Assembly (NCBI GenBank): GCA_016789245.1 | Contig: JAEURM010000121.1 | Coordinates: forward strand, 1-6,293 | Reading direction: 5' to 3' | From: Anaerolineales bacterium | GTDB lineage: Bacteria; Chloroflexota; Anaerolineae; Anaerolineales; UBA6663 | Length of the DNA stretch: 6,293 nt | Part shown: in pieces, positions 438-6,293 of the stretch | Layout: each line of letters starts with the position of its first letter | How positions within the stretch are numbered: the first letter of the stretch is position 1 | The notes under the pieces: generated by a model | Database searches by the model: none | Seen by the model: only the letters and a program-made list of their open reading frames with translations | Told to the model about the DNA's origin: nothing | Translations under genes and position numbers: made by a program

Positions 438-2039
438 TCAATTCACAATCGAAGGATACGGGCTGGGAATCTCAATCTCCAATTCTAAGCCGCCGCGTGG
501 GGGAGCCGTCATCTGCAAACTGCCGCCGAGCAAAGAAACGCGCTCACTAATCCCTACCAAGCCGTAGTGTTTGCGTTCTGAAAGTGAAGCTAAATCTACT
601 GGCACGCTCATGCCGTGGCCGTTATCCCCCAGCTTCACGCGCAAGCTGGCGGCCTGCGTGCGTTGCAGTGAAAGCCGCACCTGCGTAGCATCCGCGTGCT
701 TGCGGATGTTGCTCAGCCCTTCTTGAATAATGCGAAACACGGAAAGTTCAATCGGCTCCGGCAGGCGGCCCAGCGCGGCATCAATCTCCAACTCCACCGG
801 TACGCCGTTGGTTTCTGACCATTGATTGGCGAGTGAGCGAATGGCCGCTGACAGACCGTGGCTATCAATGGTGGGTGGGCGCAAATCACTGCACAATTGC
901 CGCAAGCTCCCGATGACGTACCGAATGCCGCCCCGAATCTTGGTCAACTCATCGTGTTGCGGCAAATCGCCCAACTCGGATTCCGTCTCTTCCAGTTGAT
1001 AGTTGTAGCTCAATAAATCCTGAATAATCTGGTCATGCAGTTCACGCGCCAACGCCTTACGCTCAGCCTCGCGCTCCGTCATCAAACGCCGGTTGGCCTC
1101 CTGCAAAGCCAAGTTCAGTTGGTCTAACGCCTTCACTTGGTCACGCAAGCGTTCAAAAAGTTGGCGGTTGAGTGAGCCTTGCGCTTCTAAGCTTTGGCGC
1201 AGGGCTTGTTGCGCGCGGCGTAAATCTTCAGCTTGCTGTTGCGCGGCGTGATAATTTTCCAGCGCCCAGATAACGGGTGTAATTTGCTCTTGCTGGCTGG
1301 AACCTACTACTAACTCCACAATTTCGCGCGGCGTGGTTTCAGACGTGCGCCGCAAAGTGATGGGCCGCCCGTGGTACAACACCAAAATCCGGTGCGTAAC
1401 GGCGAAGATGTGTTTTAGATCATCGCTACTAATGATGATGGCCACGTTTTGGCCGGCCAAAGCCCGAATGCGCTGGAGCAGTTTTTGTTGCCGTTCAAAG
1501 CTCAAACCGGCCAGCGCTTCATCCAACAGCAGTAAACGTGAAGGCCGGCACAGCGCGCGCGCCAATCCCACCACATGTTGCTGTTCCGCAGACAGTTGGT
1601 TGGCTGGCTCATGCACCAAATCGGGTGGCATTTCAAACTCACTAAACAGCGTCTGTGCCACCTGCGTCATCTTATCTTCTTGTGGCCAAATGCCCCACCG
1701 CTTGGCCCAGCCCCACTCGCGGCCCAAAAAAACGTTACGGAGCACGTTTAAGTTGCCCGCCAGCTTGGGCGTTTGGTGCACCATTTCAATGCCCAGCTTT
1801 TGCGCGTGGGCGGGGCTTTTAGGCTGAAGGGCTTGGCCGGCAAATGTTATTTCGCCGCTGGTGGGCGGATATTGCCCGCCGAGGATTTGAAAAAGCGTGG
1901 ATTTGCCGGAGCCGCGTTGCCCCACTACCCCCAGCACTTCGCCCGGCTCAATGGCAAAGCTCACGTTTTCCAACGCCGCCACCGAACCAAAATATTTGGT
2001 GAGGTTGCTAACGTGCAGAAGCGGAGTGGGCGGGGCCAT
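438..2039 (-). CDS. ABC-type ATPase fused to a NarL-type histidine kinase
   Basis: This is a 533-residue cytoplasmic protein with no membrane segment. Residues ~6-245 are an ABC ATPase most like the first cassette of sugar importers (RbsA/XylG/MglA). It shows Walker A GQRGSGKST (40-48), Q-loop Gln89, a signature LSAEQQ (149-154) in place of LSGGQ, and Walker B LLLLDE (169-174). The switch histidine position is Ser205 (IIISSDD), so ATP turnover may be impaired. Residues ~262-325 are a Gln/Leu/Arg-rich coiled coil. Residues ~325-390 are a HisKA_3 dimerisation domain with phospho-accepting His335 in ARELHDQ. Residues ~430-526 are the HATPase with N-box NIRKHAD (444-450), DNGHGM (472-477) and GLVGISER (493-500). 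The protein thus replaces the second cassette of a sugar ATPase with a kinase. No permease, binding protein or full response regulator lies beside it. The start is ATG 2039, immediately before the conserved cassette. A GTG at 2069 overlapping the upstream stop (GTGA) is a credible alternative. The longer frame from 2177 is unlikely because it overlaps the upstream gene. Ligand and target are unknown. Confidence 0.9.
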   Translation of the reverse strand: MAPPTPLLHVSNLTKYFGSVAALENVSFAIEPGEVLGVVGQRGSGKSTLFQILGGQYPPTSGEITFAGQALQPKSPAHAQKLGIEMVHQTPKLAGNLNVLRNVFLGREWGWAKRWGIWPQEDKMTQVAQTLFSEFEMPPDLVHEPANQLSAEQQHVVGLARALCRPSRLLLLDEALAGLSFERQQKLLQRIRALAGQNVAIIISSDDLKHIFAVTHRILVLYHGRPITLRRTSETTPREIVELVVGSSQQEQITPVIWALENYHAAQQQAEDLRRAQQALRQSLEAQGSLNRQLFERLRDQVKALDQLNLALQEANRRLMTEREAERKALARELHDQIIQDLLSYNYQLEETESELGDLPQHDELTKIRGGIRYVIGSLRQLCSDLRPPTIDSHGLSAAIRSLANQWSETNGVPVELEIDAALGRLPEPIELSVFRIIQEGLSNIRKHADATQVRLSLQRTQAASLRVKLGDNGHGMSVPVDLASLSERKHYGLVGISERVSLLGGSLQMTAPPRGGLELEIEIPSPYPSIVN

Positions 2040-2065: not shown

Positions 2066-2260
2066 TCACCCCAGCGCCACAGCGAGTAACATGCCAAACA
2101 AGCCTAGCACCACGCCGAGGTGCAAAAGCAAATCTTGCGGCGTGAGCCACTCTAGGCCCAGCATACGCAAAACCCAATTCAACAGCACCAGCGCAATGCC
2201 CACCAGCACTAACAGGCCTTTATAACGAGCGAAGAAAGCGGAGATTTGATTGAGCCACAT
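2066..2260 (-). CDS. Small two-helix membrane protein, unknown function
   Basis: This frame encodes 64 residues with two strongly hydrophobic segments, about 15-35 (LLVLVGIALVLLNWVL) and 43-64 (LLLHLGVVLGLFGMLLAVAL). They are joined by a short loop, GLEWLTPQD. The N-terminus is short and mildly basic, so an integral inner-membrane hairpin is predicted. No family is recognised. The frame lies 35 bases after the hflX stop and 26 bases before the kinase ATG (or overlaps a possible kinase GTG start as GTGA), which fits co-transcription and possible translational coupling. No clear Shine-Dalgarno precedes ATG 2260; the region is T/C-rich on the coding strand. The two clean helices and its fit between neighbours argue for a real gene. 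A membrane anchor or partner role for the soluble fusion kinase is only a guess. Confidence 0.65.
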   Translation of the reverse strand: MWLNQISAFFARYKGLLVLVGIALVLLNWVLRMLGLEWLTPQDLLLHLGVVLGLFGMLLAVALG

Positions 2261-2295: not shown

Positions 2296-3645
2296 TTAGG
2301 CTGGCTTACGCGCAGACTTGCGGGCCTTAGCCGCAAATGGCTTAAAGCGCGGCGCAATTCGGTCTGGCACGCGGCCGCGCATGTGTACGCCATCTTCTTG
2401 GTGTTCCGTTTGCTCTACTAAGCCTTGCTCATGGAACAACGAGATGAGATGACCGTGCTTATACGGCACTACCACGTTGATGGGCAACAAGTTGGTATAT
2501 AACGCATGCTCTAAGCGTTCTAACAATGTTGGCACACCCACGCCGGTGCGCGCCGAGAGCGAGGTGCCCAATTCCAAATACTCGCCCAAGTGCGCTTCCG
2601 CCGCCGCGCGCGTTTCCGGTGTGAGCGCATCAATTTTGTTGAAGGCTAACACCGTGGGCATCTCTGGAATTTCCAGCTCGGCCAACGTTTTTTCCACGGC
2701 CTGAATTTGCTGGCGGGCGTTGGCGTGCGTTACATCCACCACATGCAAAATCAAATCGGCTTCGGCGATTTCTTCCAGCGTAGCGCGGAAGGCGGCCACT
2801 AGCGCCGTGGGCAATTTTTGGATGAAGCCCACCGTATCCGTAAACAGCACGGGCCGCTTACCCGGCAGAAGCACGCGCCGCGTGGTGGGGTCTAGCGTGG
2901 CAAAGAGTTGGTCAGCGGCATAAATTTCATTGGAGCCGGTGAGTGTATTAAGCAAAGTGCTTTTACCGGCGTTGGTGTAGCCCACAATTGCTACCACGGG
3001 GATGGCGCTCCGTTGGCGTTGGGCGCGGTGCCGTTGGCGGTGCGCGCGCACTTTATCTAACTCGCGTTTAAGTTGGGTGATGCGGCGGCCCATTTCCCGC
3101 CGGTCAGCTTCCAACTGCGTTTCACCGGGGCCGCGCAAGCCCACGCCGCCATTGCCGGTACGGCCCGCACCGCCGCCTGCCTGCCGGGCCAAGTGCGTCC
3201 ACGCGCGCGTGAGGCGTGGCAAACGGTATTGGTATTGCGCCAATTCCACCTGCAATGCGCCTTCGCGGGTGTGCGCGTGTTGGGCAAAAATATCTAAGAT
3301 GAGGGCGGTGCGGTCTAGCACCTTCACGCTCTCACCAAAAATATCTTCCAGCTCACGTTGGTGGCGCGGTGAAAGCTCCTCGTCAAAAATCACCACATCG
3401 CTCAGCGTCTCTTCCACAAACGCGCGCACGTCTTCCGCTTTGCCGGAGCCAATCAGCGTGTTGGGGTCTGGGCGGGAGAGCTTTTGGTAGGTTTCGCCCA
3501 CCACTTGCAGGCCCGCCGTATCGGCCAGCAAGGCTAATTCAGTGAGAGAGTCTTCAATTCCCAATAAATGCTCGTTTTGGTGCAGTTCAATGCCCACCAA
3601 AAACGCGCGCTCTACGGGTGGTTTGGTTGCTTTAGGAGATGACAT
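2296..3645 (-). CDS. hflX: GTPase HflX (ribosome-associated)
   Basis: This is a 449-residue HflX-family GTPase. In characterised bacteria HflX binds the 50S subunit and splits stalled or hibernating ribosomes under heat or antibiotic stress. The N-terminal HflX domain is at ~12-120 (RAFLVGIEL, then NTLIGSGKAEDV and VIFDEELSPRHQRELE). It is followed by the characteristic Gly-rich linker and GPGETQLEADRR (154-183) and a basic coiled coil (~183-213). The G domain has G1 GYTNAGKST (222-230), G2 FATLDPTTR (248-256), G3 DTVGF (270-274), G4 NKID (336-339) and G5 SARTG (364-368). The protein ends in a Lys/Arg/Ala-rich tail after residue 434. All GTPase motifs are intact. ATG 3645 was chosen because it directly precedes the conserved domain and leaves the hairpin at 3665-3686 outside the gene. 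Upstream ATGs at 3669 and 3699 would run through hairpins. No strong Shine-Dalgarno is visible. It is followed after 35 bases by the small membrane gene. Confidence 0.96.
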   Translation of the reverse strand: MSSPKATKPPVERAFLVGIELHQNEHLLGIEDSLTELALLADTAGLQVVGETYQKLSRPDPNTLIGSGKAEDVRAFVEETLSDVVIFDEELSPRHQRELEDIFGESVKVLDRTALILDIFAQHAHTREGALQVELAQYQYRLPRLTRAWTHLARQAGGGAGRTGNGGVGLRGPGETQLEADRREMGRRITQLKRELDKVRAHRQRHRAQRQRSAIPVVAIVGYTNAGKSTLLNTLTGSNEIYAADQLFATLDPTTRRVLLPGKRPVLFTDTVGFIQKLPTALVAAFRATLEEIAEADLILHVVDVTHANARQQIQAVEKTLAELEIPEMPTVLAFNKIDALTPETRAAAEAHLGEYLELGTSLSARTGVGVPTLLERLEHALYTNLLPINVVVPYKHGHLISLFHEQGLVEQTEHQEDGVHMRGRVPDRIAPRFKPFAAKARKSARKPA

Positions 3646-3757: not shown

Positions 3758-5329
3758 TCACGGCAAGCCCAGCACTTCCAGCGTGCGCGGGTGCTCCACC
3801 GTGAACTCATAGCGCAATTCGCGCTTGCCGGGCGCGAGGGTGAGCTTCCACTCCAGCCGGTTCAAATCATCATGCTCGGTGGCACGCGGCTCGGCGCTCT
3901 CCAGCCGCACTTTTATTTGCTCATCGCGCGCTACGGGCAGTTGGTCACGCACCACCACGGTTTGTGCGGCATCCCGCAAGTTCTCCAGCTTAAGCACGTA
4001 CGCAAAGCGGATGCGGCGTTTATCACCCAAGAAGTTTTTATCTACTTCGCGTTGCGTCAGTTCACGCTCCACGCGCAAGCGCTCATCCGCGCCAAGGAAC
4101 AGTTCAATCTCTTGTTGTGGTGCCACAAACTCCAATTGCGTAGCGCCTAGGTAATCATCACCATCAAACAGTTGCGCTTGGCCGGGGAGGAAAGTGTACG
4201 CACTCTCATTCTTCAGCTTGGCGCGCCGGAAACAGGCGGCTTGCAAGCGCGGCGCGGTCACGTAATCCAGTTCGGGTTTCAGCGCCAAAGTGGTAATGGT
4301 TACTTTGCGCGTATCGCCGTTGCCGGGAATATCCGCCTTAGCCGTGAGTTGATACGTGAGCGCCGCGCCGCTCTCAGACACAACGGCGTCCAGATACTCC
4401 ATTTCCGCTTCGGGCACAGGTGCGCTAGCAGAAAAAGTTTGGCTCTCATCCATCACCATGGCGGCTTTCGCCATCCGGCCCCGCGCTACTTGGGGCGCGG
4501 CGGCCGGCATAGCGGGCATAGGCGGCGGCTTGGGTGCAATGTACCACGGTTGCAATTCTGGCACGGTGAGGGCTACCGCCGGTTGCGCGGTGGAGAGCGT
4601 GAGCGCTACATTTTGCCAATCTTCGCCGGTGTGTTGCGCCACTTGTGCCAAGTAGCTAACCTCTAAATTATTAGTCGTCAAGCGCAAATCGTACAGCGGG
4701 TGCCAACTGGCGTTCGTCACCATATGCGTCAGTTCCAGCGTCAGCTCGCCCGCTTGCACAACGTCCACTTCCACCACAGCCACATAGCGTTGTTTGGGCC
4801 GCGCGGAACCAAGGGCCTGCAATTGCCGCTTAAGCTGATCAATCACCTTATCGTTCTCACGCTTCTCACGGCTCAACTTCAGCAAATCCGCCTGTACGGC
4901 CAGCAGGCGTTGGCGCACAAAATCAAAAATAGCGCCCTGCTCCTCCGGCTTTTGGTTGCGCAGAACTAGGCCGCGCACAAACATTTCACTCTGCGCCCCT
5001 AGCCCTTCAATATTCTTCTGCTCTTTTTCCAAAATGGCCTGCCGCGCCGCCAACTCTGCGCCCGCATCTTGCGCGGCCAGCAGTTTGTTCTCTAGCTCCT
5101 GCACAGTAGCGGCCGGCGTTTCCAAGAGTTGTTCAAACTGCACACTCACGCCCAGCAGTTTGGCCCGCGCCGTGCCCTTGCCAGAAGCACGCACGGAATC
5201 CGGCATTAAATTCAGAGGCAGGTTTTCCACCCGAATTTTGTGCACGCCCACTTCCAAAGTCACTTGGCCCACCCGCGTCAGCCGGGCGCGGTCTGGGAAA
5301 ACAGTTACAGCGCGGATTGTGGTTTCCAT
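3758..5329 (-). CDS. DUF4139 / mucoidy inhibitor MuiA-family protein
   Basis: This is a 523-residue protein of the DUF4140-DUF4139 family, annotated in databases as mucoidy inhibitor MuiA-like; its biochemical role is unsettled. The N-terminal DUF4140-like part covers ~1-125 (TTIRAVTVFPDRARLTR, then VENLPLNLMPDSVRASG). It includes a coiled coil at ~72-110 and is followed by a second coiled coil at ~136-175. DUF4139 covers ~200-520 and shows NASWHPLYDLRL (207-217), TGEDWQNVALTLSTAQP (234-250), PWYI (261-264), LPGQAQLFDGDDYLGATQL (381-399), LGADERLRVEREL, FLGDKRR and RDQLPVARDE (461-470). A Pro/Ala/Met-rich low-complexity insert lies at ~267-310 between the two halves of the domain. No signal peptide or membrane segment is seen, so it is probably cytoplasmic. 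ATG 5329 is preceded by GAAAGG 6 bases upstream, which favours it over the in-frame ATG at 5395. The gene is followed by a 112-base gap with three hairpins before hflX and faces a divergent gene. Confidence 0.9.
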   Translation of the reverse strand: METTIRAVTVFPDRARLTRVGQVTLEVGVHKIRVENLPLNLMPDSVRASGKGTARAKLLGVSVQFEQLLETPAATVQELENKLLAAQDAGAELAARQAILEKEQKNIEGLGAQSEMFVRGLVLRNQKPEEQGAIFDFVRQRLLAVQADLLKLSREKRENDKVIDQLKRQLQALGSARPKQRYVAVVEVDVVQAGELTLELTHMVTNASWHPLYDLRLTTNNLEVSYLAQVAQHTGEDWQNVALTLSTAQPAVALTVPELQPWYIAPKPPPMPAMPAAAPQVARGRMAKAAMVMDESQTFSASAPVPEAEMEYLDAVVSESGAALTYQLTAKADIPGNGDTRKVTITTLALKPELDYVTAPRLQAACFRRAKLKNESAYTFLPGQAQLFDGDDYLGATQLEFVAPQQEIELFLGADERLRVERELTQREVDKNFLGDKRRIRFAYVLKLENLRDAAQTVVVRDQLPVARDEQIKVRLESAEPRATEHDDLNRLEWKLTLAPGKRELRYEFTVEHPRTLEVLGLP

Positions 5330-5533: not shown

Positions 5534-6293
5534 ATGCCGAGAGCTGTATTGTTGGTACAAAGTGATTTAAGCGCCGCCAAACCTTTGGCGGACTTTTTTT
5601 CAGCGCGTGGTGACCGAGTGATTGAAGTGACCTCACCAGCAGAGGGATTAATGTGGCTGGGTGAAGTGGAGCCAGATTTAATTGCGTTGGATTTACACTT
5701 CCCCGGCAACCAATGGCTAGAAATCATTCAGCGCGTGCGGCGCACTTATACCAACACCCGCATCTTACTCACTAATCAATTTCCCGATATCCGCCGTGAG
5801 CTGGCCGCCAAAGAGCTAGGCTGTGAAGTGTTTTTGCGCCAACCGTTTACCAGTGTGTGGATTGAGCGTGCCGTTCAGCAAGTGGAGGGCCATGCCCCTA
5901 TTAAGCCTCGGGTGGCCGAGTTGCCCCGCGTGCGCATGCCCGTGCGGCTCAAAATTATCTTGCCGTTTGCTTTGTTGGCTTTGGTGTTTGCGGCCAGCGC
6001 CGCGTACCTCATCAGCCAGTACGTGGTGGATTCTATCCGTGACCGGTTTGACCGGCAGTTGCTAGATGCGGCCACACTCACGGCCGATTGGATGGTGCGC
6101 GAAGAAAGCGCCATGCTAGAAACTTTGCGGCTGGTGGCGAACACAGAAGGCGTGGCGCAGGCCGTGCAAAACGCCGATGCAGAGGCCGCGCGGCGTTTGG
6201 TTTTGCCCATTGCCGTAAACGCCCAAGCTGAAGCGGTGGAAGTGCTAGATTTTCAGGGCGTGAGCGTGCTTTCACTTTACCGCCAGAGCAACG
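5534..6293 (+). CDS. Degenerate receiver domain + transmembrane sensor protein (runs off right edge)
   Basis: An open frame from ATG 5534 continues to the window end (253 residues seen). Residues 4-117 resemble a response-regulator receiver: AVLLVQSD, then the phospho-acceptor candidate Asp53 in LIALDLHFPG, Thr80 in ILLTN, and the C-terminal FLRQPF. The usual acidic pair is replaced by Gln9-Ser10 and the invariant Lys by Gln103, so normal Mg-dependent phosphorylation is doubtful. A basic linker (RLPVRMPVRLK-like, ~126-140) leads into a transmembrane helix at ~141-161 (IILPFALLALVFAASAAYLIS). Then comes an extracytoplasmic helical start (YVVDSIRDRFDRQLLDAATLTADWMV) typical of Cache-type sensors. 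A second transmembrane helix and an output domain (histidine kinase, cyclase or GGDEF) are expected beyond the window but are not seen. ATG 5534 is chosen because the receiver fold begins at once. No Shine-Dalgarno is visible. The gene diverges from the DUF4139 gene. Confidence 0.8.
   Translation, partial: MPRAVLLVQSDLSAAKPLADFFSARGDRVIEVTSPAEGLMWLGEVEPDLIALDLHFPGNQWLEIIQRVRRTYTNTRILLTNQFPDIRRELAAKELGCEVFLRQPFTSVWIERAVQQVEGHAPIKPRVAELPRVRMPVRLKIILPFALLALVFAASAAYLISQYVVDSIRDRFDRQLLDAATLTADWMVREESAMLETLRLVANTEGVAQAVQNADAEAARRLVLPIAVNAQAEAVEVLDFQGVSVLSLYRQSN

Follow-up and report, generated by a model that had tools for sequence, protein, structure and literature searches.

The window analysed here (the whole stretch of 6,293 nucleotides, contig JAEURM010000121.1 from an Anaerolineales bacterium) carries on its minus strand a single open reading frame of 533 amino acids (438..2039; ATG at 2039, stop codon at 440-438), assigned from the ORF, Pfam and homologues as an ABC cassette, a helix, a HisKA_3 domain and a HATPase_c domain. 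Three Pfam domains were matched, all above cut-off: ABC_tran at residues 23-176 (E 3e-28), HisKA_3 at 326-389 (4e-10) and HATPase_c at 432-526 (1e-6). The fusion of one RbsA/XylG-like cassette to a complete NarL-type kinase, as proposed in a sequence-only reading of this DNA, was thus borne out. ABC_tran was matched once, and not as the two tandem cassettes of RbsA, XylG and GguA; SLC5 and STAC domains were not found in the window protein by Pfam. The best NCBIfam matches of the cassette were the first cassettes of the two-cassette sugar ATPases YtfR, XylG, LsrA and RbsA (covering roughly residues 6-254), none of which came near the full-length cut-offs. The best structural matches of the cassette model were ABC ATPases in general, with no sugar importer singled out, and a family missing from that list carries no weight.

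All parts of the gene lie on the minus strand. The N-terminal cassette (residues 6-245; 1305..2024) contains an intact Walker A motif, VVGQRGSGKST (residues 38-48; 1896..1928), a degenerate ABC signature, LSAEQ (residues 149-153; 1581..1595), in which Glu152 stands for Gly, and an H-loop Ser205-Asp206 (1422..1427) with Asp in place of the switch His; the Walker A Lys, the Q-loop Gln and the Walker-B Glu are kept. The linker (residues 246-321; 1077..1304) is predicted to be helical. The model places helices at 247-283 and 290-356, although its confidence is low between about 248 and 300, and the linker was better conserved than the cassette (mean 0.74 vs 0.62, 227 sequences). The HisKA_3 dimerisation/phosphotransfer domain (residues 322-389; 873..1076, Pfam) holds the phospho-acceptor His335 of the H-box (1035..1037) and is followed by the HATPase_c catalytic domain (residues 432-526; 462..746, Pfam and alignment). 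N444, D472, G474 and G493 are in place, and the alignment upheld the earlier statement that His335 and the N, G1 and G2 boxes are intact. By hydropathy the fusion protein is soluble: 0 membrane segments were predicted in 343/347 aligned fusions including the window protein, and one segment in P0062, P0138, P0161 and L092.

The window shows 4.25 kb on one side of the fusion gene and 0.44 kb on the other, downstream side; within these flanks neither importer nor regulator was found. A small hydrophobic ORF of 64 amino acids with two membrane helices by hydropathy (2066..2260, minus strand) lies 26 bp upstream of the kinase and is separated by 35 bp from the next upstream gene, a co-oriented HflX-type GTPase (2296..3645, minus strand, Pfam). 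Besides the window copy, six homologues of the small ORF were found (63-64 amino acids, 66-91% identity), and it is probably a real gene without a name, which may belong to the kinase system. For one of its relatives (P0244) and one relative of the kinase (P0004) the longest contig has the same recorded length, 578,081 bases, and the two genes may be kept together as a pair. Further upstream, Pfam identified a DUF4140-DUF4139 protein (3758-5329, minus strand) and, on the plus strand, an N-terminal receiver domain after which a dCache_3 sensor domain begins (5534-6292), an unusual order that is cut by the window end. A shared DUF4139-like neighbour called by eye in L002 and L057 was dropped, the L002 copy having no Pfam match. 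In all of the closest mapped relatives of the window protein (L001, L122-L126, L128 and L129; SH-aLRT 90), genes for a regulator and a binding protein come after the kinase; an ATPase and a permease are seen as well in four of these eight, and the other contigs end first. The HflX gene, the two-helix ORF and a lipoprotein ORF of the window had no match in the fusion loci compared, so the window gene seems to be displaced from its usual locus, and its importer and regulator would then be encoded elsewhere in the genome.

For the extent of the family, a search was started from the window protein. All 120 proteins listed of 3916 matches contained ABC_tran and HisKA_3 and were 511-594 amino acids long; two of the 120 were without a precomputed HATPase_c. 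The search started from the divergent member L111 (39% identical) again gave both domains in the 120 listed of 1312, and all named organisms among the matches listed in both searches were Chloroflexota. A genome scan with exact 8-residue words returned 19 loci, of which 11, all from Chloroflexota, held full-length relatives; the other eight (L012-L019) matched in the cassette only and were dropped. In evenly drawn, overlapping genome samples the fusion was present in 63/396 genomes of the class, 47/301 of the order and 27/400 of the phylum, nearly always as one copy and free of internal stops in all listed genomes except G211, G441 and G407. From the order sample, loci of 20 of the 47 matching genomes were fetched and then five more; one partial second copy (G204:C605) was excluded, and two Herpetosiphon regions were refetched (L155-L156). 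Full-length fusions of ABC_tran and HisKA_3 are a common feature of Chloroflexota, and the ABC-HK fusion is a real, conserved family. A sequencing or assembly artefact joining two genes, the error that had been named as refuting this reading, was ruled out, its probability being close to nil: relatives at 91, 88 and 86% identity (91% being the best among the matches listed) are full-length fusions, there are hundreds of full-length homologues, and the matches in the genomes listed lack internal stops apart from the three genomes named. Database labels for these proteins are 'ATP-binding cassette domain-containing protein' or 'signal transduction histidine kinase', and no paper on a cassette-kinase fusion was found by title and abstract start among the matches listed in the open PMC literature.

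Motif residues were counted in an alignment of 347 non-identical strings, made up of the window protein together with 240 proteins from databases and 106 sequences from loci, in which some database and locus sequences may be the same gene. At the second Gly position of the signature, Glu was found in 345 sequences, Asp in one and Gln in one; the loss of this Gly is reminiscent of CFTR G551D. The H-loop His was retained in 10/347, the Walker-B position held Glu in 52/347 and Asp in 207, and Glu174 and His206 occurred together in 0/347. The Walker A Lys (Lys46 in the window protein) was retained in 284/347 and the Q-loop Gln in 274/347; the complete catalytic set of Walker A Lys, Walker B Glu, signature Gly and H-loop His was present in 0/347. 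The kinase residues His335, Asn444, Asp472 and Gly474 were present in 347/347. In the importer ATPases of the same loci the signature Gly was found in 52/59 first cassettes, 59/59 second cassettes and 19/19 single-cassette proteins, and the H-loop His in 59/59 first cassettes and 19/19 single-cassette proteins; second cassettes had Ser at the H-loop His position in 59/59, and in RbsA-type proteins the second cassette is itself degenerate. Judged by these motifs, the fused cassette has lost the residues for hydrolysis and is no longer an ordinary ATPase.

Two subsets of the alignment deviate from the common pattern. The H-loop His occurs only in P0181, P0188, P0190, P0193, P0194, P0200, P0205, P0210, P0211 and P0217, which have Asp for the Walker-B Glu and Glu in the signature. 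The sequences P0123-P0163 (including Phototrophicus and Aggregatilineales) have a cassette without the Walker A Lys, often with the Q-loop Gln replaced by Arg or Glu and the Walker-B Glu by His or Asn, with signature Glu and kinase residues intact. Among the 120 listed proteins (of 1312) nearest L111, the Walker A Lys was absent in 57 and the kinase residues were kept; in the 12 sequences of this branch that were inspected, the entire Walker A loop is rewritten.

For the gene neighbourhoods, 110 loci were annotated with HMMs that had been derived from the Anaerolinea thermolimosa locus, using its genes and the matches to them; 59 loci were well flanked (at least 5 kb on both sides), and features were scored within a radius of 9 kb. 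A permease of the sugar-importer type was present in 54/59 well-flanked loci, or 52 without L103 and L133, whose permeases are long branches that may be of another kind and are counted among the 54. A binding protein was present in 51/59 and a REC-LuxR-REC regulator in 47/59, and all 47 regulator-bearing loci also had the permease. The remark that no permease or binding protein is near therefore holds for the window and fails for the family, and the neighbourhood comparison that had been proposed along with it, run on the 110 loci, placed importers and the regulator next to most fusion genes. No permease was found within 9 kb at five of the 59 well-flanked loci, four near-identical ones from Herpetosiphon and L091, which had neither importer nor regulator nearby. 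Over all 110 loci, many of them on short contigs, a permease or binding protein was found in 98, the regulator in 79 and neither in eight. Gene runs upstream of the kinase were of the form S-N2-P-HK in 16/110 loci and S-N1-P-HK in 8/110. The importer genes of A. thermolimosa had GguA, GguB and ChvE as best matches, below the curated cut-offs.

As a control, the other HisKA_3 kinases of four genomes were placed relative to PF02653 permeases: 1/38 lay within 9 kb and 2/38 within 12 kb, compared with 4/4 fusion kinases in the same genomes (4/4 vs 1/38, Fisher p 4.5e-5; the fusion neighbourhoods had been seen beforehand, and only the 1/38 is informative). Since PF02653 also covers amino-acid permeases, the control is generous if anything. 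The regulator was identified as REC-LuxR-REC by Pfam in 2/2 scanned, with Asp at both acceptor positions in 17/17 aligned; a second receiver after the DNA-binding domain, as at L001:9599-10663 and other loci, is unusual. The fusion gene thus goes together with the REC-LuxR-REC regulator and with importers resembling ChvE/GguA/GguB or Rbs/Frc. Where a Herpetosiphon fusion kinase has neither nearby, it comes after a radical-SAM protein (L008:6729-7925) whose C-terminal region is of the CofH/MqnC kind.

In 20/110 loci the kinase gene lies just downstream of a permease that lacks its own ATPase gene; some of these permeases are accompanied by a binding protein and others are not. At seven of these 20 no ABC ATPase gene was found in the whole stretch examined; at 12 a two-cassette ATPase was also present in that stretch. 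The fusion cassettes of the 20 loci have the signature Glu in 20/20, the H-loop His in 0/20, the Walker A Lys in 20/20 and the Walker-B Glu in 11/20. In a permease tree, from which five long-branch permeases were left out and in which three labels were set by hand (L088 ATPase-less, L070_P3 with ATPase, L168 cut by the contig end), 17 of the 20 ATPase-less permeases and one at a contig end formed one clade (support 99/96), whose sister group has ATPases. Apart from the contig-end member, this clade occurs only beside the fusion kinase. When 396 genomes were searched from the permease (five best candidates per genome scored, E up to 1e-70), 11/12 clade members adjoined a fusion kinase, and the twelfth lay at a contig end with a regulator upstream; for 19/20 other permease matches the cluster also contained a co-oriented ATPase gene, and the remaining one is cut off. 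The ATPase-less permease was modelled with a complete ABC-importer fold, and helix 176-193 of the model falls at the place expected for the coupling helix, the assignment of this helix to the coupling-helix position being our own. Paired permeases on one ATPase are known (LsrCD, YtfT/YjfF), and at L096, L130 and L149-L153, where the ATPase-less permease stands behind a complete importer, it could share the importer's ATPase as the second of a pair; the remaining ATPase-less permeases could borrow an ATPase encoded elsewhere.

With the kinase controlled for, distances between ATPase-less permeases followed those of the cassette at a partial r of 0.73; the corresponding value for the kinase was -0.05 (n=16). 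For permeases with their own ATPase (GguB type), partial r was -0.15 vs the cassette and 0.31 vs the kinase (n=50). The regulator gave 0.47 vs the cassette and 0.12 vs the kinase in the same ATPase-less loci (n=12), and 0.31 and 0.24 in all loci (n=75). Because the regulator, too, tracks the cassette to some degree, a clock effect may account for part of the 0.73, the cassette perhaps being simply a better clock than the kinase. At the level of sequence distances, the co-variation favours docking on the ATPase-less permease and lends no support to docking on a GguB-type permease, the case that applies to the nearest mapped relatives of the window protein.

The fusion probably serves as sensor kinase in a two-component system concerned with sugar uptake, with a pseudo-ATPase docking on a sugar permease. 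The cassette would take the part of an ABC ATPase without hydrolysing ATP and would sit on the cytoplasmic side of the permease, which in about a fifth of the loci is the ATPase-less one; when the binding protein delivers sugar, the docked cassette would follow the shape change of the permease, the conserved helix would carry this change down to the phosphotransfer domain, and the kinase would phosphorylate the regulator, which would adjust importer expression. The disabled motor, which stands where a sensing domain would normally be and in many relatives lies beside sugar-import genes, suggests importer parts turned into a sugar receptor. At the ATPase-less loci, an ABC importer may, as a tentative extension with chances slightly below even, have been rebuilt as a membrane receptor: the binding protein and the ATPase-less permease would catch sugar outside, the dead cassette would sit at the place of the motor, and permease motion would lead to phosphorylation and not to transport. 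The window protein would then be a member of the same family whose partner is either a complete importer or a receptor encoded at another locus.

The cassette had earlier been proposed as a docking or sensory module through which the kinase reads transporter state or ATP level. The absence of the catalytic set from every aligned sequence and the linkage to importer and regulator support the transporter part of that proposal; the ATP part fared less well. A soluble ATP/ADP sensor, in which non-hydrolytic nucleotide binding sets the kinase through an open or closed cassette without permease contact, is unlikely: it would account for the Walker A Lys (284/347) and Q-loop Gln (274/347), both kept in the window protein, and for the loci without an importer nearby, but leaves the importer linkage and the ATPase-less permeases unexplained. 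Moreover, the loss of the Walker A Lys around Phototrophicus (57 of 120 listed), with kinase residues kept, weighs against a shared role in ATP sensing, and L111, the mapped member of this branch, adjoins an importer and the regulator. That the kinase replaces the second cassette, as had also been suggested, is correct for the domain order but not for the importer's motor, many relatives adjoining a complete two-cassette ATPase.

Such neighbouring ATPases (S-N2-P-HK at 16 and S-N1-P-HK at 8 of 110 loci) could instead form a mixed dimer with the fused cassette, the kinase reading or braking the importer's own ATPase. In the established geometry of ABC dimers the signature of one cassette faces the nucleotide of its partner, where the signature Glu of the fusion would come to lie; this, together with the 20/110 loci that have a permease but no ATPase gene in the run next to the kinase, makes such a dimer a little less credible still than nucleotide sensing. 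It is more doubtful again, and quite improbable, that the cassette is a slow motor powering the permease without an ATPase gene, the protein being transporter subunit and kinase at once. The fusion cassette is indeed the only one in the ATPase-less gene run, and has the Walker A Lys at all 20 of these loci and the Walker-B Glu at 11 (52/347 overall), but the same 20 all have the signature Glu and none the H-loop His, Glu174 and His206 are never combined (0/347), and 12/20 also hold a two-cassette ATPase in the stretch examined. Docking of a non-hydrolysing cassette on the permease is the reading kept in what follows.

UhpC is a transporter homologue that works with the NarL-type kinase UhpB and the LuxR-type regulator UhpA; UhpABC belongs to the major facilitator family with a membrane kinase and, unlike ABC-HK, has no ABC parts. 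With respect to GguA, RbsA and XylG, the fusion cassette is closest to their first cassette, but ABC-HK has one cassette, has lost the hydrolysis residues and carries the kinase at the place of the second cassette. In the account given in PMC8871633, UhpC is the receptor in UhpABC control of a sugar-phosphate transporter; the likeness lies in a receptor, a kinase and a regulator serving a sugar transporter, and the ATPase-less permease would be the ABC counterpart of UhpC. The SLC5/STAC histidine kinases CbrA, CrbS and RpuS, as described in the parts cited of PMC8871633 and PMC9100948, resemble ABC-HK in joining a histidine kinase to a part taken from a transporter; there this part is a membrane symporter domain followed by STAC, whereas in ABC-HK it is a soluble cassette, and the membrane part is a separate gene if present anywhere. 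BceS, a kinase that lacks a sensing domain of its own, is proposed in the cited part of PMC10314905 to read ABC transporter cycling in BceAB-BceS; in that description it has membrane helices, contacts BceB and has no fused cassette, in contrast to the window protein with its 0 membrane segments. In PstSCAB-PhoU-PhoR the state of the importer is passed to the kinase (PMC6978683), which, according to the part cited, uses the adaptor PhoU and no fusion, unlike ABC-HK.

Kinases that read transporters are already known, but the way in which kinases are coupled to ABC transporters is still under study. In ABC-HK, the motor domain of the transporter itself, deprived of its catalysis and joined to the kinase, appears to serve as the coupling part. 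The ABC-HK fusion is probably a new form of transporter-coupled sensing, and would be more than that if the ATPase-less loci are receptors. It occurs in genera that include cultured strains (Anaerolinea, Herpetosiphon). If the receptor interpretation is true, the family would document how an active transporter became a receptor, and would offer a compact system for mutational tests of the path from permease to kinase.
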